A model generated the notes under the pieces. That model ran no database searches. It saw only the letters and a program-made list of their open reading frames with translations, and was not told the DNA's origin. A stretch of 64,000 nt of DNA. Origin: Flagellimonas meishanensis. GTDB lineage: Bacteria; Bacteroidota; Bacteroidia; Flavobacteriales; Flavobacteriaceae. Numbering within the stretch: position 1 is the first letter of the stretch; the number at the start of each line of letters is the position of its first letter. The stretch is from positions 1 to 64,000 of the forward strand of contig NZ_JAINVW010000002.1 in the NCBI RefSeq assembly GCF_019880545.1, read 5' to 3'. This document shows positions 4,250-21,288 of this stretch, in pieces. Position numbers and translations under genes: made by a program.

Positions 4250-4286
4250 GTGTAAATACATTCCAACAAACAAATAAGTGCAAAAC

Positions 4287-5579
4287 ATGATGGGACAAAT
4301 GAAAACAATCAGTATTTTTTTGGTGGTTTTATTGTGCTTTGCATGCAAAAACCAAAACAAACCAGAAGACAAAATCAATACAGTGAATCAACAACTGAAT
4401 CTTACCGCCAAAGATGTTCTGGGGAATCCGGACTTTTTGGCCATTTCATACGGAGGATATAGGAAAAAAACCAGGGAAGCACAACCTACCATTGCCCAGC
4501 TTAAGGAGGATATGAAAATCCTCTCGGCAATGGGTATTGGGCTAATTCGAACCTACAACGTACAATTTCCGCATGCGTCCAACGTGCTCAAGGCCATTCG
4601 CGAGATCAAAAAAAAAGACCCGAATTTTCAAATGTTCGTGATGTTGGGCGCCTGGATAGATTGCAAAAATGCGTGGACGGACCAGGAACCCGACCACAAT
4701 GTGGAAAGTGAGACCAATGCCGCCGAGATTGATCGCGCAGTCGCCCTGGCCAATGAGTACCCCGATATTGTAAAAATTGTGGCCGTGGGCAACGAGGCCA
4801 TGGTAAAATGGGCCACCAGCTATTACGTTCAGGCCAACGTGATCCTAAAATGGGTAAACCACTTACAGGAACTCAAGGCCAATGGCGGCCTGCCAAAAGA
4901 ACTCTGGATCACCAGTTCGGACGATTTTGCGTCATGGGGTGGGGGCAGTCCGGAATACCACACTCCAGATTTGGAAGCATTGGTAAAAGCTGTCGATTTT
5001 ATATCCATGCACACCTATCCTTACCACAATACCCACTACAACCCGGAATTTTGGTTGCATCCCGAGCAGGAAACCAAATGGTCCGATAAGCAAAAAGTGG
5101 ATGCGGCCATGCAGCGCGCATTGGGTTTTGCCAAAAAACAATACGACAGTGTATCCAACTACATGAAAAGTTTGGGAGTTGACAAACCTATACATATTGG
5201 CGAAACTGGTTGGGCCAGTGTGTCCAATGGATTTTACGGACCCAACGGCTCCAGGGCCACCGACGAGTATAAGCAGGCGATGTACCATGAACTCATTAGG
5301 GAGTGGACCACCAATGCCGGAATTTCCTGCTTTTATTTCGAGGCCTTCAACGAACCTTGGAAAGATGCCCACAACCCAAAGGGCTCAGAGAACCACTTTG
5401 GACTTTTTACGGTGGACGGGAAGGCCAAGTATGCACTTTGGGAGCTGGTTGACAAAGGAATTTTTAAGGGGTTGACAAGAAATGGAAATCCAATCACCAA
5501 GACTTACGATGGGGATTTGGAGGCCTTGTTGACGGAAGTCCTTGTTCCGCCCTCCGGGGAGAGGATTGAAACCCCATAA
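4287..5579 (+). CDS. GH17 beta-1,3-glucanase lipoprotein
   Basis: Predicted endo-acting laminarinase anchored by lipid. The N-terminus is a lipoprotein signal peptide ending in LLCFAC, with Cys20 as the acylated residue. The mature chain is a GH17 TIM barrel of about 400 residues: the acid/base Glu lies in VAVGNEAMVKW (about E170) and the nucleophile in HIGETGWAS (about E306). Aromatic substrate-binding segments HTYPYHNTHYNP and FYFEAFNEPW are also visible. Several starts are possible: a GTG nine bases upstream, ATG at 4287 or 4290, and ATG at 4299; all leave the lipobox intact. It lies 37 bases after the GH149 gene and 9 before the GH30 gene, so the three are probably co-transcribed. It would supply oligosaccharides to the downstream symporter. 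Confidence 0.88.
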   Translation: MMGQMKTISIFLVVLLCFACKNQNKPEDKINTVNQQLNLTAKDVLGNPDFLAISYGGYRKKTREAQPTIAQLKEDMKILSAMGIGLIRTYNVQFPHASNVLKAIREIKKKDPNFQMFVMLGAWIDCKNAWTDQEPDHNVESETNAAEIDRAVALANEYPDIVKIVAVGNEAMVKWATSYYVQANVILKWVNHLQELKANGGLPKELWITSSDDFASWGGGSPEYHTPDLEALVKAVDFISMHTYPYHNTHYNPEFWLHPEQETKWSDKQKVDAAMQRALGFAKKQYDSVSNYMKSLGVDKPIHIGETGWASVSNGFYGPNGSRATDEYKQAMYHELIREWTTNAGISCFYFEAFNEPWKDAHNPKGSENHFGLFTVDGKAKYALWELVDKGIFKGLTRNGNPITKTYDGDLEALLTEVLVPPSGERIETP

Positions 5580-5588
5580 GTGTAAGCA

Positions 5589-7121
5589 ATGAAAAAAGTG
5601 TCAGGTGTTTTAGGGTTAATGGCAATACTAATGATGACGAGTTGTGTCAAAGAGAAATCTCGATTGAACGTACAGGTGTACGAAACCGCATCCAATGGTA
5701 ACGTCTTTAAAAAAATTGACCCTTCAACCTCTGAAGGCCACGATGTACAGGTGGTTGTTTCTCCCGATGAAAAGTTTCAGACCATCACTGGATTTGGAGG
5801 TTCGTTTACGGAGTCCTCTGCCCATCTACTGAATCAATTGGGAAAACAGAACAGGCAGCAAGTTTTGGAGGCATACTTTGGAGATGAAGGCGCCCGATAT
5901 TCCCTCACCCGCACACACATAAATTCCTGTGATTTTTCATTGGGCAACTATTCCTACGCTCCTGTGGAGGGAGATATGAATTTGGATCATTTTTCCGTCA
6001 TTGAGGATAAGGACGACATCATACCCATGATCAAGGAGGCCATGGCCATTTCCAAGGATGGTTTCAGAATCATCTCCTCGCCATGGACAGCACCCCCCTG
6101 GATGAAAGACAACAAGGATTGGGTCGGGGGTAAGCTCCTTCCCGAATATTACGACACCTGGGCCCTGTTCTTTTCCAAGTATATTGATGCCTACAGCGCT
6201 GAGGGCATAGACATTTGGGGAATTACCGTTGAAAATGAACCCCTGGGCAATGGAAACAATTGGGAGAGCATGCACTACACGGCCGAAGAGATGACGCAGT
6301 TTGTGCAAAACCATTTGGGCCCAACATTGGAAAATTTAGGAAAGGGCAACATAAAGATATTAGGCTATGACCAAAATAGGGAACATTTGAACGAATGGGT
6401 GGATGCGATGTTCAGGGATGAGAAAACATCAAAATACTTTTCAGGAACAGCCATACATTGGTATGCCAGTACCTTCGAGGTATTTCCCGAAGCCCTTCAA
6501 TATGCCCACCAAAAAGCCCCCGACAAGCATTTGATCCAAACCGAAGCCTGTGTTGACGCTGAGGTGCCCAAATGGAAGGATGATCAATGGTACTGGCGCA
6601 AAGAGGCCACCGACTGGGGTTGGGATTGGGCTCCAGAGGACCAAAAGCACCTCCATCCCAAGTATGCTCCCGTAAATCGCTATGCCCGTGACATTATCGG
6701 TTGCTTGAACAACTGGGTGGACGGTTGGGTGGACTGGAACATGGTACTCGACACAAAAGGAGGCCCAAATTGGTTTAAGAACTGGTGCGTGGCACCCGTT
6801 ATCGTTGATGTGGAAAAGGATGAGGTGTACTTTACGCCACTGTATCATACCCTCAAGCACTTCAGCAAGTTTATCAGGCCTGGTGCCATTAGGATAGGGG
6901 TAAAACCTTCAGAGGATTCCTTGTTGGTCACCGCGGCAAAAAACCCAGATGGTTCCGTTGCAATTGTTGTTTTTAATGAAGGCATGGAATCGAAGCTGGT
7001 GAACTTCAAGATAGGGGAAGACGAAATCAATATTCCCATAAGCGGACAGGCCATTCAAACAATGGTCTTGGAACAAGATATGGACAATGGTAAAAACAAC
7101 CAACTAAATAAACAACTATGA
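5589..7121 (+). CDS. GH30 beta-glucosidase/beta-1,6-glucanase lipoprotein
   Basis: Exported glycoside hydrolase, 510 residues, with a lipoprotein signal ending in MMTSC (Cys19). The GH30 core begins with FQTITGFGGSFTESSA. The acid/base Glu is E217 in TVENEP and the nucleophile E319 in LIQTEAC. A C-terminal beta-rich side domain (residues about 430-495) is usual for the family. GH30 enzymes in laminarin loci of marine flavobacteria remove beta-1,6-linked glucose branches, which is the most likely role here; a plain beta-glucosidase role cannot be excluded. The residues after the lipid Cys (VKEKSR) are not acidic, so the usual Bacteroidota surface-export signal is absent and a periplasmic location is more likely. 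The stop overlaps the start of the symporter gene (ATGA), which indicates translational coupling. Confidence 0.85.
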   Translation: MKKVSGVLGLMAILMMTSCVKEKSRLNVQVYETASNGNVFKKIDPSTSEGHDVQVVVSPDEKFQTITGFGGSFTESSAHLLNQLGKQNRQQVLEAYFGDEGARYSLTRTHINSCDFSLGNYSYAPVEGDMNLDHFSVIEDKDDIIPMIKEAMAISKDGFRIISSPWTAPPWMKDNKDWVGGKLLPEYYDTWALFFSKYIDAYSAEGIDIWGITVENEPLGNGNNWESMHYTAEEMTQFVQNHLGPTLENLGKGNIKILGYDQNREHLNEWVDAMFRDEKTSKYFSGTAIHWYASTFEVFPEALQYAHQKAPDKHLIQTEACVDAEVPKWKDDQWYWRKEATDWGWDWAPEDQKHLHPKYAPVNRYARDIIGCLNNWVDGWVDWNMVLDTKGGPNWFKNWCVAPVIVDVEKDEVYFTPLYHTLKHFSKFIRPGAIRIGVKPSEDSLLVTAAKNPDGSVAIVVFNEGMESKLVNFKIGEDEINIPISGQAIQTMVLEQDMDNGKNNQLNKQL

Positions 7122-8683
7122 GCAAGGTGAAAACACTTTCAAAAGATAAGGTCCCGGTTGGACAAAAGGCTGCCTTTGGGGCAGGCCATTTTATATTGAA
7201 CATACTTCCTGGGACACTGGGCGTCTTCATCCAATTCTTTTTGTTGACAGCATGGGGAGTGGACCCTTTATGGGCCGGTCTTTTGGGAGGATTGCCCAGG
7301 ATTTTTGATGCCATAACCGACCCGATCATGGGTTTCATCTCGGATAACACCAAATCTAAATACGGGCGGAGACGGCCCTATATCTTTTTGGGAGCTATAA
7401 TAAGTGGGGTCCTTTTCTTTTTGATGTGGCAACTGGATGACAATGCATCACAGTCCTACATTATTTGGCATGTGATGGTCCTTCAAATCCTCTTCTTGGT
7501 GGGCAATACCATGTTTGCCACCCCACTGGTGGGTCTGGGCTATGAAATGACATCCGACTATAATGAACGGACCAGATTGATGAGCTTTGCCAATAGCATG
7601 GGCCAGATTGCTTGGATGATCGTGCCATGGCTTTATGTCATAATTCCAGATTCCAATACATTCAACACACAAACGGAGGGTGTGCGCACCATGGCTTTGA
7701 TCGTTGGGGCCATGTGCGTGGTCTTTGGGATTTTGCCCGCCCTGTTTTGTAAGGGAATAGACGCCGCACATATGGAGAACCGCAAGGAAATCACCTTTAA
7801 GACACTTTGGTCCAATATGAAGGACCTGTTTGTGGGCATCGTACAGGTGTCCAAAAACAAGCCATTTATGAAACTTTGTGGTGCCACCTTCCTTGTTTTT
7901 AACGGATTTCAACTTGTGGCGGCTTTCGGGGTTTTCATCATTGTTTTTTACATGTATAGCGGTAGTTATGAGATGGCAGGGACCTGGCCGGCATGGTTCA
8001 ATACCGTAAATGCCATGATCACCGCCTTCTTGGTGATACCCATCATCTCCAAAATGTCTGACAAATGGGGAAAGAAAAAGGCTTTTATCATTTCCACTGC
8101 ATTATCTGTGGTAGGGTATCTGTTGAAATGGTGGGGCTTTGACAAAGAACTGAACAGCCAGTTCAATGAAACGGGACTTGGCAAGGGATTAAGTTCCGGC
8201 CTTGCCTCCATTTTTGACTATTTGAACCCGATACTGGACAATGTGGGTATGTCATGGTTTTCCATTGACCCCGCAAACGAAATTCCATGGCTCATTTTTG
8301 TGCCGATTCCATTGTTCGCTTTTGGAATGGGCGGGTTGTTTACCTTGATGATGTCCATGACCGCCGATGTGTGCGACCTGGACGAATTGGAAAACGGAAT
8401 GCCTCGGAAAGAAGGTACTTTTGGGGCAATATATTGGTGGATGGTAAAATTGGGACAGGCCATAGCCCTAGTTTTGGGAGGGTTGATCTTGAAAATCGTG
8501 GGCTTTGATCCTAATGTTACAGAACAATCATTGGACACCATGAACAGACTCAGGATAGCGGATATCATCATACCCTCATTCACAGCCGCCCTCGCAATTT
8601 GGGTGATGTGGAAGTACAGTCTGTCAGAAGCAAGGGCAAAAGAAATCAAGGAAAAACTGGTAGCCCGAAGAGGCGAATTATAA
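7118..8683 (+). CDS. GPH-family sugar:cation symporter (MFS)
   Basis: Inner-membrane transporter of 521 residues with about 12 hydrophobic segments. The stretch FDAITDPIMGFISDNTKS followed by KYGRRRPYIFLGA is the loop 2-3 signature of glycoside-pentoside-hexuronide symporters. Its position between exported glucanases and a cytoplasmic phosphorylase suggests that it imports gluco-oligosaccharides or glucose released from laminarin with Na+ or H+. An unusually long loop (roughly residues 340-385, after the WWGFDKEL segment) interrupts the second half and is predicted to lie outside the membrane. Its ATG overlaps the stop of the GH30 gene by four bases. Confidence 0.85.
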   Translation: MSKVKTLSKDKVPVGQKAAFGAGHFILNILPGTLGVFIQFFLLTAWGVDPLWAGLLGGLPRIFDAITDPIMGFISDNTKSKYGRRRPYIFLGAIISGVLFFLMWQLDDNASQSYIIWHVMVLQILFLVGNTMFATPLVGLGYEMTSDYNERTRLMSFANSMGQIAWMIVPWLYVIIPDSNTFNTQTEGVRTMALIVGAMCVVFGILPALFCKGIDAAHMENRKEITFKTLWSNMKDLFVGIVQVSKNKPFMKLCGATFLVFNGFQLVAAFGVFIIVFYMYSGSYEMAGTWPAWFNTVNAMITAFLVIPIISKMSDKWGKKKAFIISTALSVVGYLLKWWGFDKELNSQFNETGLGKGLSSGLASIFDYLNPILDNVGMSWFSIDPANEIPWLIFVPIPLFAFGMGGLFTLMMSMTADVCDLDELENGMPRKEGTFGAIYWWMVKLGQAIALVLGGLILKIVGFDPNVTEQSLDTMNRLRIADIIIPSFTAALAIWVMWKYSLSEARAKEIKEKLVARRGEL

Positions 8684-8711
8684 AACAACATACTAAAAAA
8701 AGTAACAGAAA

Positions 8712-9620
8712 ATGTCATTTAGAGAAGGTCATATTTTTTCACTTACCAAGCACAATTATTCAGATTATGCGGGGTTGGACTTCAGCAAAATATCCATCGA
8801 CGAGCTGCGCCAGCTTTGGTTGGAAACCATTCAGAATGGGATGCACGGGCTTTGTTTCAGTATTTATGAAGATGGACAGAGTCCCGGGGACGTCATTACT
8901 AAAGAGCAGGTAAGGCGAAGGATGCAGATTATTAAGCCCTATACACAATGGGTACGCTCTTTTTCCTGTATCGAGGGGAATGAACACGTGCCAGTGGTGG
9001 CCAAGGAATTTGGCATCAAAACCTTGGTGGGCGCTTGGTTGGGCCACGACTTGGAACTCAACGAAAAAGAAATAGAAGGTTTGATTGATCTTGCAAAAAA
9101 TGGCTATGTGGACATAGCGGCAGTCGGTAATGAGGTGATGTATCGTGGGGATTTGACCGAGGACCAACTGCTGGACTACATGCGAAGGGTAAAGGAGGCC
9201 CTGCCGAACATACCCATGGGCTATGTGGATGCCTACTATGAGTTTTCACACCGGCCTAGAATCACCCAAGCTTGTGATGTGATCCTATCCAATTGTTATC
9301 CCTATTGGGAAGGCTGCCCCATGGAATACTCACTGAACCATATGCAACAGATGTTCGGTCAGGCAACTGATGCCGCTCAGGGTAAAAAAGTGATTATTAC
9401 CGAAACGGGCTGGCCAAGCAAGGGGGAGAGCCTAAGAGGAGCCGTTTCCTCAGAGGAAAATGCCATGAAATATTTTATCAATACCCAGGCCTGGTCCAAA
9501 AAGAATAACATAGAGGTGTTCTATTTTTCATCTTTTGATGAATCGTGGAAGGTCGGTGCCGAGGGGGATGTCGGCGCCTACTGGGGCTTGTGGGACAAGC
9601 ACGAAAAGCTGAAATTTTAA
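8712..9620 (+). CDS. Signal-less GH17 family glucanase/glucosyltransferase
   Basis: A second, shorter GH17 protein (302 residues) starting directly with MSFREGHIF and lacking any signal peptide, so it is predicted to be cytoplasmic. Both catalytic glutamates are in place: E141 in IAAVGNEVMYRG and E231 in VIITETGWPSKG. The barrel ends with FYFSSFDESWKVG, matching the last strand of the family. Family knowledge allows either hydrolysis of beta-1,3-glucan oligosaccharides or beta-glucan transglycosylation; the sequence does not decide between them. It follows the symporter by 28 bases and is the last gene of the locus before a strong double hairpin. It would act on the same imported oligosaccharides as the GH149 phosphorylase. 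Confidence 0.82.
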   Translation: MSFREGHIFSLTKHNYSDYAGLDFSKISIDELRQLWLETIQNGMHGLCFSIYEDGQSPGDVITKEQVRRRMQIIKPYTQWVRSFSCIEGNEHVPVVAKEFGIKTLVGAWLGHDLELNEKEIEGLIDLAKNGYVDIAAVGNEVMYRGDLTEDQLLDYMRRVKEALPNIPMGYVDAYYEFSHRPRITQACDVILSNCYPYWEGCPMEYSLNHMQQMFGQATDAAQGKKVIITETGWPSKGESLRGAVSSEENAMKYFINTQAWSKKNNIEVFYFSSFDESWKVGAEGDVGAYWGLWDKHEKLKF

Positions 9621-9690: not shown

Positions 9691-9757
9691 GTTTTTGTTG
9701 ACAAATATCATTTCCGTATCTGGGGAAATGGCCTAGCTTCATACAAACAAAAAGGTT

Positions 9758-10609
9758 ATGGAGACCCTTGTATGTGCCATTGATTATTCCCAAAACTCAG
9801 TCGCGGCGCTTAAAATGGCCCAGGTGCTGGGTAGGCAACTTGGTATGCGATTGATGGCATTACATGTCTTTGATATGGATTTGACCTTCGCAAATCCCTT
9901 GAGTACGGCCTATGCCAAAAAGGAGAAGGAAGCTTTTGCAAAACAAGGCAAGACCTTGAAGGAATTTTGTGCTACCCACTTGGGTCTAGGCCAAAACCTT
10001 GAAAATGTTGAACTCAAGATAAAAGAACATGCCATTGTTAGAGAGGGGATTGCTGAAGTGATTACCGAGTACAACGCCAGCTTGTTGGTGATGGGTCTTC
10101 AGGGCAAAAGTGCCCTTAAAGAAGTTTTTATAGGGAGCAACACGAAGGATATGGTCATGAGAAGCACCTGCCCCGTGCTGGCAGTACCTCCGCACTGGGA
10201 AAAGTTTGAGGTGGAGAATATGCTGTATGCAACGGATTTTGAAGAGGCGGATATCCATGCCATCGATTGGCTTGTCAAGACCTTTGCCAAATCTCTTGGC
10301 TCCAAAATCAGCGTATTTCACATATCCACAGAAAAGGAATACGCCGGCGAAGATCAGATGCAATGGTTTCAAGAAATGCTGCAACAAAAAGTAACCTATG
10401 GGAAAATTAGTTTTGAAATGGTCCGTTCCGAAGATGTGTTCGGCACACTTCTTAAGCAGGTAAAGAATACCCAAGCTGATGTTTTGGTAATGTTGGAACG
10501 GGAAAGAGAGGGATTCTTCACTTCGTTGATCCAAGGCGACAAGGTAATGCAGATGATTTCCAAAGGAAACGTACCGCTGTTGGCAGTCAATAAAAGCTTG
10601 TTTCGATAA
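9758..10609 (+). CDS. Tandem-domain universal stress protein (USP 1)
   Basis: A 283-residue cytoplasmic protein with two UspA-like domains. The first (residues 1-145) opens with METLVCAIDYS and carries the ATP-binding signature G-2x-G-9x-G-S in MGLQGKSALKEVFIGSNT. The second (146-283) restarts at NMLYATDFEE but has no ATP loop; in its place is EREGFFTSLIQG. It is the most divergent of the seven paralogues in this island: it has ATD rather than PTD in its second half and lacks the histidine before the FF pair found in the others. It is separated from them by the divergent exporter genes. Its 3' end is one base from the end of the convergent ABC ATPase gene. Confidence 0.88.
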   Translation: METLVCAIDYSQNSVAALKMAQVLGRQLGMRLMALHVFDMDLTFANPLSTAYAKKEKEAFAKQGKTLKEFCATHLGLGQNLENVELKIKEHAIVREGIAEVITEYNASLLVMGLQGKSALKEVFIGSNTKDMVMRSTCPVLAVPPHWEKFEVENMLYATDFEEADIHAIDWLVKTFAKSLGSKISVFHISTEKEYAGEDQMQWFQEMLQQKVTYGKISFEMVRSEDVFGTLLKQVKNTQADVLVMLEREREGFFTSLIQGDKVMQMISKGNVPLLAVNKSLFR

Positions 10610-13685: not shown

Positions 13686-13798
13686 TTTAAAACATGAGTT
13701 TGGTCAGTATGGGAATATAGCATGGACGGGGCAAACCTTACTATCTGTTTGTTCAATGAATTAAAATGCGCCGGGATTTCCCCAGATGACCAATATCA

Positions 13799-13829
13799 TT
13801 TTTTGTGGTGGTGCAGGCGGTTAACTTTG
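13799..13829 (+). promoter_or_regulatory. Bacteroidota-type promoter of the USP array
   Basis: A T-rich -33 element (TTTTTTG) is followed after 16 bases by a perfect -7 element TAACTTTG (TAnnTTTG). Transcription would start near 13834, about 10 bases before the chosen ATG at 13844. This supports that ATG over the GTG at 13805, which falls inside the promoter. Confidence 0.6.
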
Positions 13830-13843
13830 GGAAAAGTGAGGAT

Positions 13844-14689
13844 ATGCGAACTGTACTGATACCTACCGATTTTTCAAGAAATGCATTGCACGCCTTGGAA
13901 TATGCCCAAGAACTCTTTAAATGCAACCGGGCCTGTTTTTTTCTGCTTCATGCCTTTGCTGATGAGGTATATGGTCAATATAAGACCACACCCACAGATC
14001 AAATTGAAAGCTTGGCAGATCAAAAGCGTAAGGAAGTCAAAAAGAGGTTGGACGAATTGGTTCAGCGTGTCGAGGGGCACCCACCAAATCCGCTCCATAC
14101 CTTTGAGACCATTCCCGTTTTTGACAATTTGGTGGACGGTGTCAATGATTTTGTGAAGGATAAAAACTTGGATTTGGTGATTATGGGTACCAAAGGGGAA
14201 ACAAGCGACCATAAAACAACCTTTGGAAGCTATACCATAGAGGTCTTTAAGTATGTACAGTGTCCTGTGCTCGCGGTACCCGAGGATTTTACCTATAAGC
14301 AACCCAAGAACATTTTGTTTCCCACCGACTATATGCTGCCTTACAAGCGTCGCGAACTGAAACTTTTGGGCGACCTGGCCGGTGATTTCAAGGCAACCGT
14401 GCATTGCCTCTACATCACGGATTTTGACGTTCTCAGTCCACGGCAGGAGGATAACAAGCAATTTTTGAAGGACGCACTGCGGAGGGCCTATCTGTCCTTT
14501 GAGACCACAGCGGTAAAGAACAGGGCAGAGGTGATAATGGAGTACATCAAGGAAAAAGAAGTGAGCCTTTTGGTGATGGTGAATTCAAGGCACTCTTTTT
14601 TTGAGGATATGCTCTATCGGTCCACTGTGGATTTACTTGGCCTTAAGGTAAAGATTCCCTTTTTGGTCATGCAGAACCTGCACCGATGA
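13844..14689 (+). CDS. Tandem-domain universal stress protein (USP 2)
   Basis: First gene of the main USP run, 281 residues. Domain 1 starts MRTVLIPTDFS and holds the complete ATP loop (MGTKGETSDHKTTFGSYT). Domain 2 restarts at NILFPTDY but ends in SRHSFFEDMLYR plus IPFLVM where the ATP loop should be. The ATG at 13844 was chosen because the family begins M-[KR]-x-[IV]-L-[IL]-P-T-D and because a promoter occupies the upstream in-frame GTG. It is followed after 17 bases by the next paralogue. USPs of this kind bind ATP and are induced by starvation, redox or envelope stress; the exact role of this member is unknown. Confidence 0.88.
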   Translation: MRTVLIPTDFSRNALHALEYAQELFKCNRACFFLLHAFADEVYGQYKTTPTDQIESLADQKRKEVKKRLDELVQRVEGHPPNPLHTFETIPVFDNLVDGVNDFVKDKNLDLVIMGTKGETSDHKTTFGSYTIEVFKYVQCPVLAVPEDFTYKQPKNILFPTDYMLPYKRRELKLLGDLAGDFKATVHCLYITDFDVLSPRQEDNKQFLKDALRRAYLSFETTAVKNRAEVIMEYIKEKEVSLLVMVNSRHSFFEDMLYRSTVDLLGLKVKIPFLVMQNLHR

Positions 14690-14706
14690 TTTTTAACTAG
14701 CAAGTT

Positions 14707-15555
14707 ATGAAACAGATATTGTTGCCCACAGATTTTTCCGAAAACTCATGGAATGCCATTTTGACCGCGATTAAGCTGTATGCATGGATGGAATGCAAGT
14801 TTTATCTACTCCACGCCTATGAGCCAAGTACCCAGAATATTGCTGGGTTTAAAAGCAGTGCTAGGGCAGGAGCTGTTTATCAATCGTTGCCCGAGGCCTC
14901 AAAAAACCAATTGGCGGAAGTAAAGAAGTATTTGGATGAGCACCATTTCAATCCCAAACATACCTTTGAAACCATTTCGGTATCCGGGGATTTGATCAAG
15001 GCAATCCATCAATGTATTTCGAGGTATGATGTGGATGTCCTTGTGATGGGAACCAAAGGCTCAACAGCGGCCAAACAGATCTTTATGGGAAGTTGGACCG
15101 TGAAGGTGCTTAAAAACATCAAAAACTGCACCCTTATTGCTGTGCCCAGTTCATTTGATTTCCAAAAACTGAACTTGGTGGTATTTCCAACCGAATATAC
15201 CCACTATGTCCCCAAAAATGTATTGCGCCCTCTATTGGAACTGATTGATGCCTGGAAGTCGGAGGTTATGATTTTTCATGTGGCCCAAGAGTTTATGTTA
15301 TCCGAAACGCAGCAGTCCAATAAGGAGATATTGAAAAAAAGATTCAAGAAACATCCCACCAGTGTCCATCAGGTAACCATTGAAACAACCGTGGCGGAAG
15401 CCATCCGGAGTTTTTCCGAGGAACAGACGGCTGATATGATAGCACTTACCGCCCATTCCCATGATTTCTTTGAAAAGCTTACCCAGGAACCTGTGGTAAA
15501 AAAAGTGACCTTCAGGACCAAGGTTCCCCTAATGGTACTTCCAGATTTTGGATAG
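14707..15555 (+). CDS. Tandem-domain universal stress protein (USP 3)
   Basis: A 282-residue paralogue. Domain 1 opens MKQILLPTDFSENSWNAI and carries the full G-2x-G-9x-G-S motif in MGTKGSTAAKQIFMGSWT. Domain 2 restarts at LVVFPTEYTHY and ends with AHSHDFFEKLTQEPVVKK and VPLMVLP, again without an ATP loop. The segment FEKLTQEPV is identical in the next gene and the underlying DNA is also similar, which points to a fairly recent tandem duplication. It lies 17 bases after USP 2 and 18 before USP 4. Confidence 0.88.
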   Translation: MKQILLPTDFSENSWNAILTAIKLYAWMECKFYLLHAYEPSTQNIAGFKSSARAGAVYQSLPEASKNQLAEVKKYLDEHHFNPKHTFETISVSGDLIKAIHQCISRYDVDVLVMGTKGSTAAKQIFMGSWTVKVLKNIKNCTLIAVPSSFDFQKLNLVVFPTEYTHYVPKNVLRPLLELIDAWKSEVMIFHVAQEFMLSETQQSNKEILKKRFKKHPTSVHQVTIETTVAEAIRSFSEEQTADMIALTAHSHDFFEKLTQEPVVKKVTFRTKVPLMVLPDFG

Positions 15556-15573
15556 CGACTTAAATACAAGGAG

Positions 15574-16428
15574 ATGAAACGAATACTGCTGCCCACCGAT
15601 TTTTCCAGGAACTCATGGAATGCAATACGATATGCACAGTCCTTGTTTCGCGGACATGCATGTGAATTTTTCCTCCTAAATGCATTTCAGGTGGGTTCAT
15701 CCGGGTTGGTGACCACAATGGGGAGGACCCATGAAACACGACTTTACAGGTCGTTGAAGAAGGAATCGGAACGGGGACTTGCCAATATACTTGCACTGAT
15801 GTCAAAATCGGATGAAAATCAGGATCATAGAATCAAGACCTACTCCATGGCCGCCCATTTGGTTCAAGCGGTGGCAACAGTGGTGAAAAGCAAGGATATC
15901 GATTTGATCATCATGGGGACCAAGGGGGCCAGCGGCCTCAAAGAGGTGTTTTTGGGAAGCAATGCCCATAAAATAATTAAGGAAATTCATGCGTGTCCCA
16001 TTATTTTGGTCCCCGATGAATTTGAGTTATACGGAAGTTTTGAGGCCATGGTACTGGCCACAGGGTACGAGCACTTGTTCCATGCCCAAGAATTGAAGCC
16101 CATTATCGAGATTAGTAATAATTTTGGCGCGAAAGTTCTGGTCACCCATGCAGGTGAAGCGTCTGCACTTACATCGCATCAGGAAGGCGTTAGAAAACAT
16201 TTGGCACAGCAGTTGAATACAGTTAAGCACGAGTTTGTGTTCTTAAAGAAAGAAAGTTCGGTCAACGAGACCATTCAAAAAATGATTGGAGAAAGAGGCA
16301 ATATCCACATGGTCGCCATGGTCAACTATTGGCATAGTTTTTTTGAAAAGCTAACCCAAGAACCTGTGATCAAAAAAGTCGCCTTCAATACTACGGTGCC
16401 ATTTCTTGTGGTCCACCTATTCGAATAA
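15574..16428 (+). CDS. Tandem-domain universal stress protein (USP 4)
   Basis: A 284-residue paralogue preceded by AAGGAG immediately before the ATG. Domain 1 begins MKRILLPTDFSRNSWNAI and has the intact ATP loop MGTKGASGLKEVFLGSN. Domain 2 is more eroded: the PTD motif is replaced by LATGYEHLF, but the terminal YWHSFFEKLTQEPVIKK and VPFLVV block is kept. It is closest to USP 3. It ends 10 bases from the end of the convergent thioredoxin gene. Confidence 0.88.
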   Translation: MKRILLPTDFSRNSWNAIRYAQSLFRGHACEFFLLNAFQVGSSGLVTTMGRTHETRLYRSLKKESERGLANILALMSKSDENQDHRIKTYSMAAHLVQAVATVVKSKDIDLIIMGTKGASGLKEVFLGSNAHKIIKEIHACPIILVPDEFELYGSFEAMVLATGYEHLFHAQELKPIIEISNNFGAKVLVTHAGEASALTSHQEGVRKHLAQQLNTVKHEFVFLKKESSVNETIQKMIGERGNIHMVAMVNYWHSFFEKLTQEPVIKKVAFNTTVPFLVVHLFE

Positions 16429-16438
16429 GGTGTTTCAG

Positions 16439-16741
16439 CTAGTGTTGAAAAGATTCGAGCACTTCAATCAAGGCCGATTTTTGGAGCACCCCTGACTGTC
16501 GCCACAACTGTTGCCCGTTTCGGAACAACATTAGCGTGGGTACGCCCCGCACCTGGTACTCTTGGGCCAAAACCGGATTTTTGTCCACATCGATTTTTAT
16601 GATCTTTACTGTATCTCCCATGGCAGTTTTCACCTCTTTCAAAATGGGGGCCAACATTTTGCATGGCCCACACCAATCGGCATAAAAATCGACCAGAACC
16701 AATTGATCGGCCTGTACCAAAGTTGAAAAATTTCCTTTCAT
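16439..16741 (-). CDS. trxA: Thioredoxin
   Basis: A 100-residue cytoplasmic thioredoxin. The active site WCGPC places the redox cysteines at 24 and 27, and the cis-proline loop RGVPTLMLF is present. The frame is open further upstream, but the thioredoxin fold begins at MKGNFSTLVQ, so ATG 16741 was taken; an ATG at 16819 would add an unrelated 26-residue extension. It is the only minus-strand gene inside the USP array, convergent with USP 4 and divergent from USP 5. It is probably an accessory thioredoxin belonging to the stress island, not the main housekeeping one. That is inference from position. Confidence 0.92.
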   Translation of the reverse strand: MKGNFSTLVQADQLVLVDFYADWCGPCKMLAPILKEVKTAMGDTVKIIKIDVDKNPVLAQEYQVRGVPTLMLFRNGQQLWRQSGVLQKSALIEVLESFQH

Positions 16742-16799
16742 CGATAGAAGAATAGTATCGCAATGTATAAGATCTATTTTTTCTGCCAATTGATGTATG

Positions 16800-16840
16800 T
16801 CATAGTTTAAGATGTTCATATCATCTAGTTTTAAGATGTT
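16800..16840. repeat. Direct repeat in the trx/USP 5 divergent region
   Basis: TCATAGTTTAAGATGTT (16800-16816) is followed by TCATCTAGTTTTAAGATGTT (16821-16840), two near-identical copies about one and a half helical turns apart. Lying between divergent start codons, they could be paired operator sites for a shared regulator. Confidence 0.4.
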
Positions 16841-16862
16841 GGATTCCGAAAACCCAATTGCC

Positions 16863-17711
16863 ATGAAACGGATTCTTTTGCCTACGGATTTTTCGCCAAA
16901 TGCTTTGCATGCCATCCACTATGCCATGAAGCTGATGAGGGATTCCACATGTGTGTTTTATTTGATGCATGCATATACCCCAGATCTATACCGGGTGGAT
17001 TATGCCCTGGGCAGTCCGGGCATATTGGGACTCCCTGACGATTATCAACAGAAGGCTGAAAAGGCACTTGAAAAACTCCGGGAGCAGATTTTGGCGAACT
17101 TTCATGAACCTCGCCACAGTTTTGTATCCCATGCCGCTTTGAACACGTTGAAAGCCGAGACAAAGCGCATGGTGAAAAATGAGAATATAGATTTGGTCAT
17201 TATGGGTACACAGGGAGTGACCGGGGCGAAGGATATTTTATTTGGTTCCAATACGGTGCAGTTGTTTAGGGAATCCGATGTGCCGGTGTTGGCTGTTCCA
17301 GAGACTTACACGTTTGATAAACTTGATCAGATTCTCTTTCCGACAGACTACGATATCGATTTTGACGGACCAACCCTGGATGTCCTATTGGAATTGACGG
17401 ACCTCTGGGGTGCCAACCTTAACATAATACATGTTACCCCACCCAATGGGTTGACCCAAAAGCAGAAAAAAAATCAGCAGGCATTGGAAAAAAGGCTTCG
17501 GAAATTCAACTATGAATTGCACGACCTTCCAGACCAACCACTGGTGGATGCCATTAATGCCTATGGTCAGACCTGGTCCATTGACCTTTTGGCCATGGTG
17601 GAAAATCAGCATTCATTTTTTGAAGGCTTGGTCCGGGAGCCCGTTCTCAAGACACTTGGATTATACACCGCTGTTCCCTTTTTGGTAATGCCTAAAACAC
17701 TAAAGAATTAA
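16863..17711 (+). CDS. Tandem-domain universal stress protein (USP 5)
   Basis: A 282-residue paralogue. Domain 1 begins MKRILLPTDFSPNALHAI with the ATP loop MGTQGVTGAKDILFGSNT. Domain 2 keeps the PTD motif (QILFPTDYDIDFD) and ends with ENQHSFFEGLVREPVLKT and VPFLVM. The frame stays open 51 bases further up, but the family start motif fixes ATG 16863. It begins a second sub-operon after the inverted thioredoxin gene; the next USP starts two bases after its stop. Confidence 0.88.
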   Translation: MKRILLPTDFSPNALHAIHYAMKLMRDSTCVFYLMHAYTPDLYRVDYALGSPGILGLPDDYQQKAEKALEKLREQILANFHEPRHSFVSHAALNTLKAETKRMVKNENIDLVIMGTQGVTGAKDILFGSNTVQLFRESDVPVLAVPETYTFDKLDQILFPTDYDIDFDGPTLDVLLELTDLWGANLNIIHVTPPNGLTQKQKKNQQALEKRLRKFNYELHDLPDQPLVDAINAYGQTWSIDLLAMVENQHSFFEGLVREPVLKTLGLYTAVPFLVMPKTLKN

Positions 17712-17713
17712 TC

Positions 17714-18517
17714 ATGATGCACGTTGTTCTACCCACAGATTTTTCCAACAATTCATATAACGCCCTGTTTTATGCGGCGCATTTGTTCAAACGACAAAAA
17801 TGTACTTTCCATGTTGTCCATTGCTGTAATGGGGAAGACAATGCGGCCTACAATCAATCCATGGAGGGCTTGCGGGCCATAGTGCACCGACTTGTTTTGG
17901 ATACGGGAAAGAATACCTTCCATGAAATTAAGACAGTGGCGCTAAAATCAGAGCTGGTCAAGGGGATTGCCGAATATTTGTCCCAAATCCAACCGGATAT
18001 CATGGTCATAGGAAACAAAGGCAAGGATGAGGTCAAGGACGTCTTATTTGGGAACAACGCCATGCAGTTGGTAAGGGAAGTGACCCAATGTCCGATTCTT
18101 GTGGTGCCTTTGGAAATTGATTTTAAAAAAGTAAAGAAGATGGCATTCATTTCCAATTACAGTCAACCCATTTCTGCGGCAAACGTTAAGGCCCTTCGGG
18201 AGATGGTTGCGTTGACCAATGCCCAATTGGTGCCCATGACCATTGAAGATGGAACTGAAAACAAGGCCATTTTAGATCGGAAGGAGGCTTTTTTGGAGCA
18301 ATTCTCATTGAGTGTTTCCAACGAGGTTATACTACCCGTATTTGAGGACAAGGCAGGGACCATTATTGAATTTGTGAACCATTGGAGCATCGATATGCTA
18401 TGTATGATCTATTACCCCCATCATTTCTTTCTTGAGTTTATCGGGAAGGGAATCATAAAGGAGCTGAATGAAAAATTGACCGTGCCTTTTTTGATTTTGC
18501 CTCAAGGCTTAAATTGA
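17714..18517 (+). CDS. Tandem-domain universal stress protein (USP 6), variant ATP loop
   Basis: The shortest paralogue (267 residues), starting MMHVVLPTDFSNNSYNAL. Its first-domain loop reads IGNKGKDEVKDVLFGNN: the glycines are kept but the Ser/Thr that normally contacts the ATP phosphates is Asn. Domain 2 is strongly eroded (KMAFISNYSQPIS in place of the PTD start) yet ends with YYPHHFFLEFIGKGIIKE and VPFLIL, preserving H-x-F-F. It follows USP 5 by two bases, suggesting coupled translation. Confidence 0.87.
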   Translation: MMHVVLPTDFSNNSYNALFYAAHLFKRQKCTFHVVHCCNGEDNAAYNQSMEGLRAIVHRLVLDTGKNTFHEIKTVALKSELVKGIAEYLSQIQPDIMVIGNKGKDEVKDVLFGNNAMQLVREVTQCPILVVPLEIDFKKVKKMAFISNYSQPISAANVKALREMVALTNAQLVPMTIEDGTENKAILDRKEAFLEQFSLSVSNEVILPVFEDKAGTIIEFVNHWSIDMLCMIYYPHHFFLEFIGKGIIKELNEKLTVPFLILPQGLN

Positions 18518-18559
18518 TTACAGCACATTGCCCATTATATAATTTCAAACAAAACCACA

Positions 18560-19411
18560 ATGGACAAGCGAATATTGTTACCCACCGATTATTCAAAAAA
18601 TGCGCTGAACGCCATCCGATATGCCCAACAACTATATGCCAAGGTTCAGTGTGATTTTTATGTGTTGAACGCGTTTCAGGCCTCTGGCTATAGCCTCGAA
18701 AGTATGATGGTGCCTGAGCCAGGGGAACGCTTTTACGAGATGGCAAGAAAGGAGTCCGAGGAGGGAATGCACCGTCTCATGGAAATGTTGAAAATCCATC
18801 CTGAAAACCCCAATCACCGATTCCATACCATTTGCACCTTTAATAGTTTAGTTGAAGCAATAAAGCATGTAATCAACAAAAAGGACATTGATGTGGTAAT
18901 CATGGGCACGAAGGGCATCACTGCATCCAAAGCACGCATTTTCGGCACCAATACCGTTACGGTGATGGAAAGGATAAAGGATTGTCCGGTCATAGCCGTG
19001 CCTAGCACCTATGTTTTTGAAGTGCCACGGAAAATAGTTTTTCCAACAGATTATAAGACGGATTTCAAAAGGAAGGAGATGCGATATTTGATTGAGATTG
19101 CTCAATTGCACGACTCAAAGATCAATGTGGTGCATGTGGACAGGAACAAGGACGGAAAACTGGACCATAAGGAAATGACAAACAAAAAATTGTTACAGGA
19201 CATTTTGGACGGAACGGATTATGAAATGCATCTATTGCCAGCGGTTAAGGTCAGTGATGGGATAAATCTTTTTGTGGAGACCAAGGGAGCGGATATGATT
19301 GTGTTCATGAACCGTAGGCACCTTTTTTTTGGAAGTATACTCTCCAACCCATTGGTCAAGGAAATCGGCTACGACCCCAAAGTGCCCATTTTGGAACTAA
19401 ATGAAAACTGA
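18560..19411 (+). CDS. Tandem-domain universal stress protein (USP 7)
   Basis: A 283-residue paralogue beginning MDKRILLPTDYSKNALNAI. The first-domain ATP loop is MGTKGITASKARIFGTNT (Thr at the last position). Domain 2 restarts with KIVFPTDYKTDFKRKEM and ends with NRRHLFFGSILSNPLVKE and VPILEL. It is the last USP of the run, 42 bases after USP 6 and 12 bases before a small eRF1-like gene. Confidence 0.88.
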   Translation: MDKRILLPTDYSKNALNAIRYAQQLYAKVQCDFYVLNAFQASGYSLESMMVPEPGERFYEMARKESEEGMHRLMEMLKIHPENPNHRFHTICTFNSLVEAIKHVINKKDIDVVIMGTKGITASKARIFGTNTVTVMERIKDCPVIAVPSTYVFEVPRKIVFPTDYKTDFKRKEMRYLIEIAQLHDSKINVVHVDRNKDGKLDHKEMTNKKLLQDILDGTDYEMHLLPAVKVSDGINLFVETKGADMIVFMNRRHLFFGSILSNPLVKEIGYDPKVPILELNEN

Positions 19412-19423
19412 AAACAGCGGATT

Positions 19424-19843
19424 ATGAAGCAGATAGGAATTTGGCTGGACAAGCGAGAAGCCATTGGCATTGTATTGGAGAACAATAGGGAGAAAGAGTT
19501 TTCGATTCTTTCTGAACTTGATTTTTACAATCCAAAAGGAGGTTCACGGTCCAAAACCAGATGGGGCCCACAGGACGTGGTCCAGGACAGCAAATATCTG
19601 GAAACCGAAAAGCACCAACTGAAGCGGTATTTTAGCAATATTGTAGATACCATCGGCGATGTGGATGAATTGGCCATTTTTGGTCCCGCAGAAGCTCCCG
19701 ACAAGTTTCTGAAAGCCCTGCAAGAAGACCACCCCATGTTGGCAACCAGGGTGAAAGCAAAGGAAAAAACGGACAGTATGACCAAAAATCAGTTTAGGGC
19801 ATTGGTCAAGGAATTTTTCAAGTTTGGGGAGCAATACCTCTAA
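19424..19843 (+). CDS. Small protein resembling bacterial eRF1-like/host-attachment domain proteins
   Basis: A 139-residue soluble protein. Three features match the widespread small bacterial family related to the first domain of archaeal/eukaryotic release factors: an N-terminal strand IGIWLDKREAIGIVLE, a central ELAIFGPAEAPDKFLKAL segment, and the end KEKTDSMTKNQFRALVKEFF. Related small proteins are often annotated as translational machinery or host-attachment proteins; their biochemical role is not established. It lies 12 bases after the last USP gene and so probably belongs to that operon, which links stress proteins with a possible ribosome-associated factor. It ends six bases before the convergent cardiolipin synthase gene. 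The family call rests on remembered motifs, not on an alignment. Confidence 0.55.
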   Translation: MKQIGIWLDKREAIGIVLENNREKEFSILSELDFYNPKGGSRSKTRWGPQDVVQDSKYLETEKHQLKRYFSNIVDTIGDVDELAIFGPAEAPDKFLKALQEDHPMLATRVKAKEKTDSMTKNQFRALVKEFFKFGEQYL

Positions 19844-19849
19844 ATCCCA

Positions 19850-21256
19850 TCAAAGCAAGGGACTCATCAATTTTGCCATGCCCTCAACAAGCTTTTGGCT
19901 CCATGGCCTATCGCTGTAAGCTTCATGGTCATCGAGTAAGGTGGATTTTTTGCAGTCTTCAAAAAAGTCGTTTTTCAATTGTTTGCAGAGATCAGCGTCG
20001 TAAAGCACGGCATTGGATTCGTAATTGTGCTGAAAACTGCGGTTATCCATATTGGCGGTGCCCACACTGGCAATTTTATCATCACATGCTATGGTCTTGC
20101 TGTGCAAAAAACCATCATTGTAGAGGTATATCTTGATACCCGCCCTGAGATATGATTCAAAATAGGCCCTGACACACCAATCCACCAATTTCATGTCCGT
20201 GGTGGACGACATGAGCAGCCGGACATCCACCCCACTTAAAGAGGCAGTTTGAAGACTCTGCATTATGGCATCGCTGGGAATAATGTATGGATTGGTAATA
20301 TACAGGTACTCCTTGGCATTGTTGGCTATGGAAAAATAAACTTGTTCCATAACGGGAAAATCATCATCCGGACCGCTTGAAGCGATTTGCATGGAGGTTC
20401 CTTTTTCGCCCACTCCTTCCAATTTGAACTGGGAAAGGTCCATATCCTCCTCAGTGGCCAAGTACCAGTCGGTTAAAAACACCTGATTCAGATAATGGGT
20501 GGCTTCCCCTTTTATTTCTAAATGGGTGTCATGCCATTTTCCGGGGTAGGGGTCCTCTTTCAGATACTTGTCGGTCACATTGATGCCTCCTGTAAAGCCT
20601 ACCCTATTGTCCACCACTATGATTTTTCTATGGTTTCTATAATTCAACGAGGACAAGAACCTACCGAACCTGAACGGGAGAAACTGCTCTGTTTTGACCC
20701 CGATCTTTTTTAGGCGTGTTAAGTACTTTTTACTCAGGGAATAGCTCCCAATGCCATCATACAACAGCCGGATAGTCACATTTTCAGCAACTTTCCTTTC
20801 AAAAATCTCCATCAATCTTTCCGACAGCACCCCTTCCTCAAAAATATAGTATTGAAGATGGATGTGGTGCTTGGCATTTTCCAGCGCTTCAAAGATGTGC
20901 TCGAAGGTTTTTTTTCCGTCTTGCAACAAAGTGACCTGGTTCCGCTCTGTTACTGGACATTGGGAAGTTGCCCGAATCAGTTGGGCAATTTTTTTGTATT
21001 CCTGTAAATTGAACTTTTCGTGGTTATCACCAATGGGCTCTAGCTTTTTAAAAAAATCACTTTTCAGGGAAAACAACTTGTTCTTCCTTCTATTTCTTCC
21101 GAGCATCAGGTACAGCAGAAAACCGCCTACGGGTATGGTGAAAATGGCCAGCAGCCAAGCTAGGGTCTTGCTGGGCCTTACCCCGTTTATGAGCAAGCTT
21201 ACCACTACGCTGAGGGCGATAATCACATAAAGTACTACAAGCGAGATGATCAGCAT
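19850..21256 (-). CDS. cls: Cardiolipin synthase (phospholipase D superfamily)
   Basis: Inner-membrane enzyme of 468 residues that joins two phosphatidylglycerols into cardiolipin and glycerol. Two N-terminal membrane helices are followed by a PGG-type loop and two HKD motifs: HRKIIVVD in NYRNHRKIIVVDNRVGFTGG, and HSKTIACDDKIASVGTANMD. Length and layout match bacterial Cls. The frame extends nine codons upstream to a TTG, but that codon overlaps a perfect -7 promoter element, so ATG 21256 (MLIISLVVLY) is preferred. It is convergent with the USP operon, with only six bases between stops. Confidence 0.92.
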   Translation of the reverse strand: MLIISLVVLYVIIALSVVVSLLINGVRPSKTLAWLLAIFTIPVGGFLLYLMLGRNRRKNKLFSLKSDFFKKLEPIGDNHEKFNLQEYKKIAQLIRATSQCPVTERNQVTLLQDGKKTFEHIFEALENAKHHIHLQYYIFEEGVLSERLMEIFERKVAENVTIRLLYDGIGSYSLSKKYLTRLKKIGVKTEQFLPFRFGRFLSSLNYRNHRKIIVVDNRVGFTGGINVTDKYLKEDPYPGKWHDTHLEIKGEATHYLNQVFLTDWYLATEEDMDLSQFKLEGVGEKGTSMQIASSGPDDDFPVMEQVYFSIANNAKEYLYITNPYIIPSDAIMQSLQTASLSGVDVRLLMSSTTDMKLVDWCVRAYFESYLRAGIKIYLYNDGFLHSKTIACDDKIASVGTANMDNRSFQHNYESNAVLYDADLCKQLKNDFFEDCKKSTLLDDHEAYSDRPWSQKLVEGMAKLMSPLL

Positions 21257-21280
21257 AATGGCAGGAACAGGCGATATATA

Positions 21281-21288
21281 CAAATATA
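21281..21288 (-). promoter_or_regulatory. -7 promoter element of cls
   Basis: The minus strand reads TATATTTG, a perfect TAnnTTTG. Transcription would start near 21276, about 20 bases before ATG 21256. No convincing -33 TTTG lies at the usual distance. Confidence 0.5.

Follow-up and report, generated by a model that had tools for sequence, protein, structure and literature searches.

An array of six universal stress protein (USP) genes in Flagellimonas meishanensis probably belongs to a Flavobacteriaceae module for stress and dormancy under oxygen limitation, controlled by an activator of the CRP/FNR family; we put the probability of this reading at roughly 0.65. The array lies in a stretch of 64,000 nucleotides (the window), bases 1-64000 of contig C2 in a genome of 3.2 Mb and six contigs. 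It includes an inverted thioredoxin gene (Trx) and ends with a gene for a small, putatively eRF1-like protein (ERL). The genes, their order, their orthology, the promoter design and the sites they have in common are read directly from the sequence, and on this evidence the module is real, ancient and, by its promoters, co-regulated. USPs are widespread and the joint role of a USP set is still puzzling, so a set kept largely in order across genera, with one promoter design and a probable ribosome factor at its end, is of particular use. The gene content listed in an earlier note on this DNA is all present: six two-domain USPs, the inverted thioredoxin, a 139-amino-acid (aa) ERL and a seventh USP (U0) at 9758.

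13844..14689, plus strand: U1, USP of 281 aa, ATP motif in domain 1 and H.FF motif in domain 2
14707..15555, plus strand: U2, USP (Pfam, tree, motif scan)
15574..16428, plus strand: U3, USP (Pfam, tree, motif scan)
16439..16741, minus strand: Trx, thioredoxin (TIGR01068), 100 aa, start re-assigned
16863..17711, plus strand: U4, USP (Pfam, tree, motif scan)
17714..18517, plus strand: U5, USP of 267 aa (Pfam, tree, motif scan)
18560..19411, plus strand: U6, USP of the ERL-adjacent ortholog group (10/11 tree loci)
19424..19843, plus strand: ERL, 139 aa, probable standalone eRF1-domain-2-like protein with a conserved GG...GPQ loop
9758..10609, plus strand: U0, two-domain USP outside the array (Pfam Usp match and tree)
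19850..21283, minus strand: cardiolipin-synthase-like protein, right-hand neighbour in many relatives, named by reading the sequence and not by a family search

Of 279 USP upstream regions, 237 contain the palindrome TGAY-N4-RTCA, against 2.5 expected from shuffles that preserve single-base content only. It is also found upstream of genes for thioredoxin (34/35), a TerB-like protein (38/38), the kinase (44/53), the helical proteins HB1 (52/57) and HB2 (24/43), Hsp20 (25/47), cardiolipin synthase (30/60) and a sugar kinase (7/7) in the loci examined. The 279 regions come from 644 mapped USP genes after removal of duplicates and of regions shorter than 100 bases, so that tightly packed inner USP genes lie outside the count; gene starts were set at the first possible start codon, and each region takes in 40 bases of frame. 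Nine other palindrome patterns served as controls and most stayed near chance, the exceptions being AGT-N6-ACT at Hsp20 (12 vs 2.0 expected) and Trx (7 vs 1.8), TCA-N6-TGA at HB1 (9 vs 2.4) and some smaller ones.

In an alignment of 445 boxes the core is mostly preceded by A or C and followed by T, and a further element, TA-NN-TTT-(G/A), recurs at a constant 23 bases downstream of the box. This TAnnTTTG element is the -7 element of Bacteroidetes promoters, and the spacing between it and the box has the geometry of class-II CRP/FNR activation. The median distance from the box end to the USP start is 50 bases. The palindrome is thus found at a fixed distance from the predicted promoter, as expected of CRP/FNR class-II sites. 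Four such promoters are predicted in the window:

13787..13829, plus strand: U1-U2-U3 promoter, CRP/FNR-type box TGACCAATATCA, 23 bp, -7 element TAACTTTG; matrix score 29.2
16791..16833, plus strand: U4-U5-U6-ERL promoter, CRP/FNR-type box TGATGTATGTCA, 23 bp, -7 element TAGTTTTA; score 29.7
16760..16802, minus strand: Trx promoter, same palindrome in minus reading, -7 element TACATTG; exact composite match
9699..9741, plus strand: U0 promoter, CRP/FNR-type box TGACAAATATCA and -7 element TAGCTTC; matrix score 20.2

A weight matrix trained on 389 sites, the window excluded, places its three best matches in the 64 kb at 16791 (29.7), 13787 (29.2) and 9699 (20.2), giving one box each to U4-U5-U6-ERL, U1-U2-U3 and U0. 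The best scores in ten approximate block shuffles of the window ranged from 10.0 to 19.1, the upper value being reached by one shuffle. The Trx site on the minus strand, at 16802, scores 13.8 and falls inside the shuffle range; it is an exact composite match nonetheless. The bare box is not enriched across the window (6 vs 5.3 expected), and plain sigma-70 and terminator scans remain at or below chance. The Trx start is most likely at 16741 (MKGNF...) rather than at 16819 or 16915, which leaves a divergent promoter region of 121 bp. For the upstream count this region was taken before 16915, where the box found (17036, inside U4) is a chance match; the real box is 16791-16802. Of 42 divergent Trx/USP pairs in the loci examined, 32 have a single box with a -7 element on either side, which serves both Trx and the neighbouring USP. 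The thioredoxin gene is inverted, then, because one box serves both Trx and the second USP run. Links to redox and ribosomes had been drawn from gene order in the earlier note; they now extend beyond it, as Trx and U4 stand on one box and the U4-U5-U6-ERL run closes with ERL.

Genome-wide, the composite of box and -7 element occurs at 40 sites compared with 1 in the reversed control, and four of the 40 are in the window. The genes downstream include a cbb3 oxidase CcoN-CcoO fusion, HemN, an Fnr-like regulator, the NiFe-hydrogenase small subunit, cytochromes, a CBS protein and flavodoxin, together with PPDK-like and Hsp20-like genes (both named by reading) and USPs; a few sites, such as C3:1194537, are probably spurious. 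Composite sites precede 11 of the 13 USP genes of the genome, directly or through a same-strand run, the exceptions being C1:493429 and C3:550063. The guess that the array responds to oxygen limitation is therefore backed by a promoter design common to cbb3 oxidase, hemN and hydrogenase genes. The same pattern gives 1,149 sites across 36 genomes of the genus against 58 in the control, with an average of 38.0 per genome (23-67) in the 24 that have ERL and 19.7 (9-29) in the 12 that do not. Across 148 genomes of the phylum, part of the family shows a large excess of sites, whereas much of the remainder shows little or none. As a separate observation, the cbb3 oxidase, Fnr-like and hemN cluster at C1:1109287-1135442 holds eight composite boxes with inner bases mostly of A or T type, and clusters with a similar site pattern are found in several genomes of the genus.

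Which activator would read these boxes? It would bind TGAY-N4-RTCA, and this genome offers two candidates, which may act singly or together: the Fnr-like protein encoded at the cbb3 locus and the receiver-CRP hybrid at C1:1.425 Mb. The former has 229 aa and exceeds the Pfam cNMP_binding and HTH_Crp_2 cut-offs while falling below the NCBIfam Fnr cut-off; the latter is a 356-aa receiver-CRP-like protein by homology, in what looks like a sister locus. For relatives, the activator would in about two thirds of the loci be a kinase/receiver-CRP pair encoded beside the array. The inner bases of the palindrome bear on this choice. Y..R is found there in 130 of 394 array sites and in 0 of 55 sites of cbb3-type clusters, where A..T prevails (37/55); the 55 come from 7 genomes, with cbb3 identity checked in the window genome and elsewhere inferred from the site pattern. 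Half-sites of the Y/R type make up 403 of 688 in loci with a neighbouring receiver-CRP gene and 43 of 128 in loci without one; the three boxes of the window are themselves A/T-type or mixed. Most simply, two related regulators would have overlapping sites, and the window array would have come under the Fnr-like one once its own regulator was lost, although the relatedness of the loci compared weakens the comparison.

The sister locus at C1:1420000-1439900 (L135) deserves a description of its own. It encodes Hsp20, a large PAS-type kinase, the receiver-CRP protein, a USP, an MBL-type hydrolase and an ATP-cone protein, and it is rich in composite boxes. The possibility that it is the displaced other half of the array was considered and rejected in that form, its regulator being 39.5-43% identical to the array regulators compared. 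That regulator is 53.7% identical to a second one that lies beyond cardiolipin synthase in another relative (L173), and the closer match suggests that the region is a sister locus. Its USP groups, with 98% support, with one of two array lineages that are missing from the window.

Several observations weigh against an oxygen-responsive module of this kind. The box is rare upstream of ERL (9/37), the ATP-cone gene (2/13) and the lipoprotein gene (2/7), and it was found in 0/16 regulator, 0/6 D-LDH, 0/4 MBL and 0/2 MscS-like upstream regions. The classical FNR/FixK box TTGA-N6-TCAA is not enriched, with 1 of 279 USP regions against 1.3 expected, and it is at chance or absent in all upstream-region classes counted; together with core flanks that are mostly A/C before and T after, this leaves FNR itself unproven as the binder. 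The arrays of the window species and of Allomuricauda ochracea have no adjoining kinase or regulator, and Hsp20 is also missing there. The best homolog of the array regulators in the window genome, the one at C1:1.425 Mb, is just 45% identical. ERL is unmatched in 12 of 36 genomes of the genus, two of the 12 being less than 80% complete, and the phylum search places a USP no more than 1.5 kb from ERL in 5 of 9 same-family loci and in 0 of 20 loci of a second family (f32). Some of these points would suit another form of control, in which the box is bound by a CRP-type regulator that senses a signal other than oxygen, such as nitric oxide, redox state or energy charge, the signal being read by the PAS kinase and the receiver-CRP protein. 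The regulator adjacent to the array in relatives is indeed such a hybrid accompanied by a PAS kinase, and the missing classical box and the Y..R bases peculiar to array sites point the same way. However, the core box and its spacing are the same as at cbb3 and hemN, and the window's three boxes are closer to the cbb3 type. Control by another signal is accordingly a possible but distinctly less probable alternative, and oxygen limitation acting through a CRP/FNR-family activator is preferred.

Comparison with relatives shows how far the array holds together. About 20 kb around ERL was taken from 60 of 97 ERL-positive relatives, and a second set comprises the best 80 of 295 loci in named genomes; the two sets overlap in organisms. 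The gene directly upstream of ERL is a same-strand USP in 51/60 and 78/80 loci, respectively. The kinase is followed by the receiver-CRP regulator in 39/60 and 57/80 loci, so that about two thirds of those examined carry their own sensor and regulator, and this regulator directly precedes a USP in 40/60 and 59/80. Hsp20 is present in 30/60 and 40/80, the inverted Trx in 20/60 and 26/80, an MBL hydrolase in 25/60 and 33/80, and a homolog of the cardiolipin-synthase-like protein within the fetched stretch in 35/60 and 57/80. Pfam identifies example neighbours as a PAS/HisKA kinase, a receiver-cNMP_binding-HTH_Crp_2 regulator, Hsp20, a D-2-hydroxyacid dehydrogenase, an ATP-cone/Mrr_cat protein and an MBL/beta-CASP/RMMBL hydrolase. 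The TerB-like protein, HB1, HB2 and the lipoprotein have no Pfam match, and the cardiolipin-synthase-like, mechanosensitive-channel-like and sugar-kinase-like neighbours are named by reading their sequences only. The nearest named genome by ERL among the best 80 of 295 loci is A. ochracea, at 84% identity. It and the window have in common the trimmed layout U1-U2-U3, Trx, U4-U5-U6-ERL and cardiolipin synthase, with the same three-gene minus-strand run upstream of the array. ERL is present in 24 of 36 genomes of the genus and 75 of 299 of the family (its own genome counted in both), and by profile in 86 of 395 genomes of the phylum.

Could the array be a passive expansion of paralogues, tandem USP duplication with accidental neighbours? 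USPs are prone to duplication, and the number of USPs in a fetched stretch ranges from 0 to 9. All seven window USPs pass the Pfam Usp (PF00582) cut-off of 24 bits, at 70.6-101.9 bits; the whole genome has 13 USP genes (19 domain matches), so that the array with its six holds almost half. Against an expansion stand the divergence of U1-U6, which are 22-34% identical in pairs, the position of ERL, kept last, the single promoter design and, above all, the position-specific ortholog groups found across genera. A tree built by a quick method from 83 USPs (11 of 140 loci, picked for variety, and the genome's other USPs) gathers the ERL-adjacent USPs into a single group with SH-aLRT 100; 10 of the 11 loci contribute to it, and L098 lacks the position. 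Window positions two to six fall in ortholog groups with SH-aLRT values of 99, 99, 99, 99 and 100. These groups imply that the gene order of the array predates the split of several genera. Losses do occur, the second position being missing from L164 and L091, for example, and there is one exception to the order: the USP just beyond Trx in L202 and L128 joins the outermost lineage. An array absent or scrambled in close relatives had been named in advance as the sign of mere expansion; order and ortholog identity are instead largely kept across genera. Passive expansion is rejected on the position-specific groups, and we hold it to be very improbable. The multi-component stress or dormancy module proposed in the earlier note gains support from the kept order, the ortholog groups and the common promoter design. 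Its seventh member fares differently: U0 has the same promoter type, but it groups only with its A. ochracea counterpart, a separate lineage and not an array member in the tree. Three USPs from outside the array sit on very long branches.

The domain anatomy of the USPs suggests how the set may work. The pattern G-2X-G-9X-G(S/T), the ATP-binding motif of the family, is found in domain 1 of all seven window USPs, U5 having GN instead of GS/GT, and in domain 1 of 477 of the 508 distinct USPs of the examined loci. Domain 2 has the ATP motif in 0/7 window USPs and 0/508 locus USPs. An H.FF motif, scanned as one simple pattern, occurs in domain 2 of U1-U6 and in 158 of the 508, and the scan did not find it in U0. 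With one domain carrying the ATP motif and the other having lost it, the six USPs are probably a fixed set of ATP-occupied adaptors, each with different partners. The genes of each run are closely packed, with gaps of 17, 18, 2, 42 and 12 bases.

The identity of ERL is harder to establish. Single ERL sequences searched against Pfam, NCBIfam, PHROGs, PADLOC and PDB yield nothing useful. A 47-row ERL profile has as its best PDB match the Pelota chain 3j15, at E 0.0055 (0.03 for the best single stretch); its 9 PDB matches include a second Pelota, at 0.25. A broader profile again places Pelota first, at E 0.0013 (0.012 for the best stretch); the 19 PDB matches listed include two further Pelota chains, and the remainder are unrelated proteins. 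The best relative, a distant homolog, matches eRF1_2 at E 4.7e-4 and 20.9 bits, against a cut-off of 27.1; the other six of the seven scanned are unmatched. The loop KGG(S/A)...GPQ has its Gln in 81 of 87 rows and its two glycines in 80/87 and 77/87, in a set that includes duplicates and many rows from one genus and to which 3 of 29 distant loci gave no row; the forms GGPQ, GGTQ and VAQ all occur. Set against eRF1, the loop Gln would coincide with that of GGQ and the next helix would align gap-free, which we treat as a lead only.

These matches all lie below curated cut-offs, and ERL cannot be placed in the aeRF1 or baeRF-1 families by sequence. The alternative is a small alpha/beta protein of another fold, for instance Arb2-like, that acts as a partner of its USP neighbour and not as a ribosome factor. 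Among the weak Pfam matches of the 47 members, which reach 72 families at E up to 1, Arb2 is indeed matched by more of them (16, best E 1.2e-4) than MYCBPAP (7) or eRF1_2 (6, best 0.0021), although none is above cut-off, and a USP nearly always adjoins ERL in the fetched Flavobacteriaceae loci. Yet three different Pelota chains, the first-ranked included, appear among the 19 PDB matches, two having appeared in the earlier 9, and four baeRF families are matched separately from eRF1_2: family 10 by 5 members, family 5 by 4, family 2 by 3 and family 12 by 1. The glycine-rich loop ending in Gln argues in the same direction. Alignment of ERL to baeRF family 10 by hhalign is weak (probability 5.8%, P 0.0065); it covers the same region as the Pelota match, and a USP control gives P 0.27. 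A fold unrelated to the ribosome is thus rather unlikely, and ERL is probably a standalone eRF1-domain-2 protein. The label "eRF1-like" given to it earlier holds in that weak profile evidence converges on it, and falls short in that no match exceeds a curated cut-off.

Outside the family, two cyanobacterial records were the only ones to yield ERL homologs when plasmids were searched, and a plasmid-borne cyanobacterial homolog lies near phosphoketolase and polyphosphate kinase genes. The f32 loci (L224-L246), of the same phylum, carry ERL homologs with a KPSGGWK..VAQ loop in genomes of 2-3 Mb.

Together, these results suggest a mechanism, in which we infer the identity of the regulator, the induction by low oxygen and every biochemical role. 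U1-U2-U3, Trx and U4-U5-U6-ERL would be turned on together with cbb3 oxidase, hemN and hydrogenase. Thioredoxin would keep thiols reduced during the shift, while ERL would probably enter the peptidyl-transferase centre of the ribosome and either block it or free stalled chains. A bolder version is a long shot: ERL, induced when oxygen is lost, would be a functional peptidyl-tRNA hydrolase or peptidyl-transferase plug of a single domain, with GG...(G)G[PT]Q replacing GGQ and the codon-reading domain lost, and the six collinear USPs, each half ATP-binding and half adaptor, would assemble in fixed order into a hetero-oligomer that meters ERL according to the ATP level; energy charge would in this way stop and restart translation. 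Promoter sites common to genes of low-oxygen respiration suggest a preset shutdown programme for when air runs out. One locus makes it testable why there are many USPs and whether they act as a set, and also whether ribosomes in oxygen-starved cells can be controlled by a release-factor relative of just one domain.

The individual parts all belong to known kinds. In mycobacteria, hypoxia induces multiple USPs together with a small heat-shock protein as part of the DosR dormancy regulon, which is under a different regulator class; we know of no ordered USP array with an eRF1-type protein in it. No description of an ordered USP array with a probable one-domain release-factor relative under a CRP/FNR-type composite promoter was found in the searches made, which covered open-licence papers, and as far as these go the combination is an undescribed variant. 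The closest control is that of the FixLJ-FixK2 regulon of Bradyrhizobium diazoefficiens. Its microoxic and FixK2-dependent genes include USPs, Hsp20, an MBL-fold hydrolase, cbb3 oxidase subunits, a host attachment protein and a translational machinery protein (PMC6515984, PMC9104804), and control by the CRP/FNR family is a further likeness. Its boxes, as given there, are TTGA-N6-TCAA-like with flanks unlike those of the window, and the locus numbers of its translational machinery protein (bll4412), a possible counterpart of ERL, and of its USP bll4644 place the two genes apart. Balon is a three-domain eRF1 relative that is reported to hibernate ribosomes and to be encoded in stress operons (PMC10901736). 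Like the other aeRF1-type hibernation factors it is a bacterial eRF1/Pelota relative found among stress genes such as Hsp20; it has three domains, binds EF-Tu and is without GGQ, whereas ERL is a 139-aa single domain with a conserved loop Gln. The standalone baeRF-1 families (PMC6514570) resemble ERL in having the core domain without flanking domains, and family 10 keeps the glutamine; ERL, which retains the glutamine, reaches no Pfam baeRF cut-off. The terms "Usp" and "Hsp20" are absent from the main text of that paper.

Two neighbouring features remain to be mentioned. In L100 (11228-12052) and its relatives, an ATP-cone is fused to an Mrr-type nuclease domain and in many loci adjoins the beta-CASP RNA hydrolase; the fusion is possibly a nucleotide-gated nuclease. 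Upstream of U0, the window at 4278-9620 encodes two glycosyl-hydrolase-like proteins, a glucosylceramidase-like protein and a sugar transporter (names by reading), which likely form a glycan-use locus.

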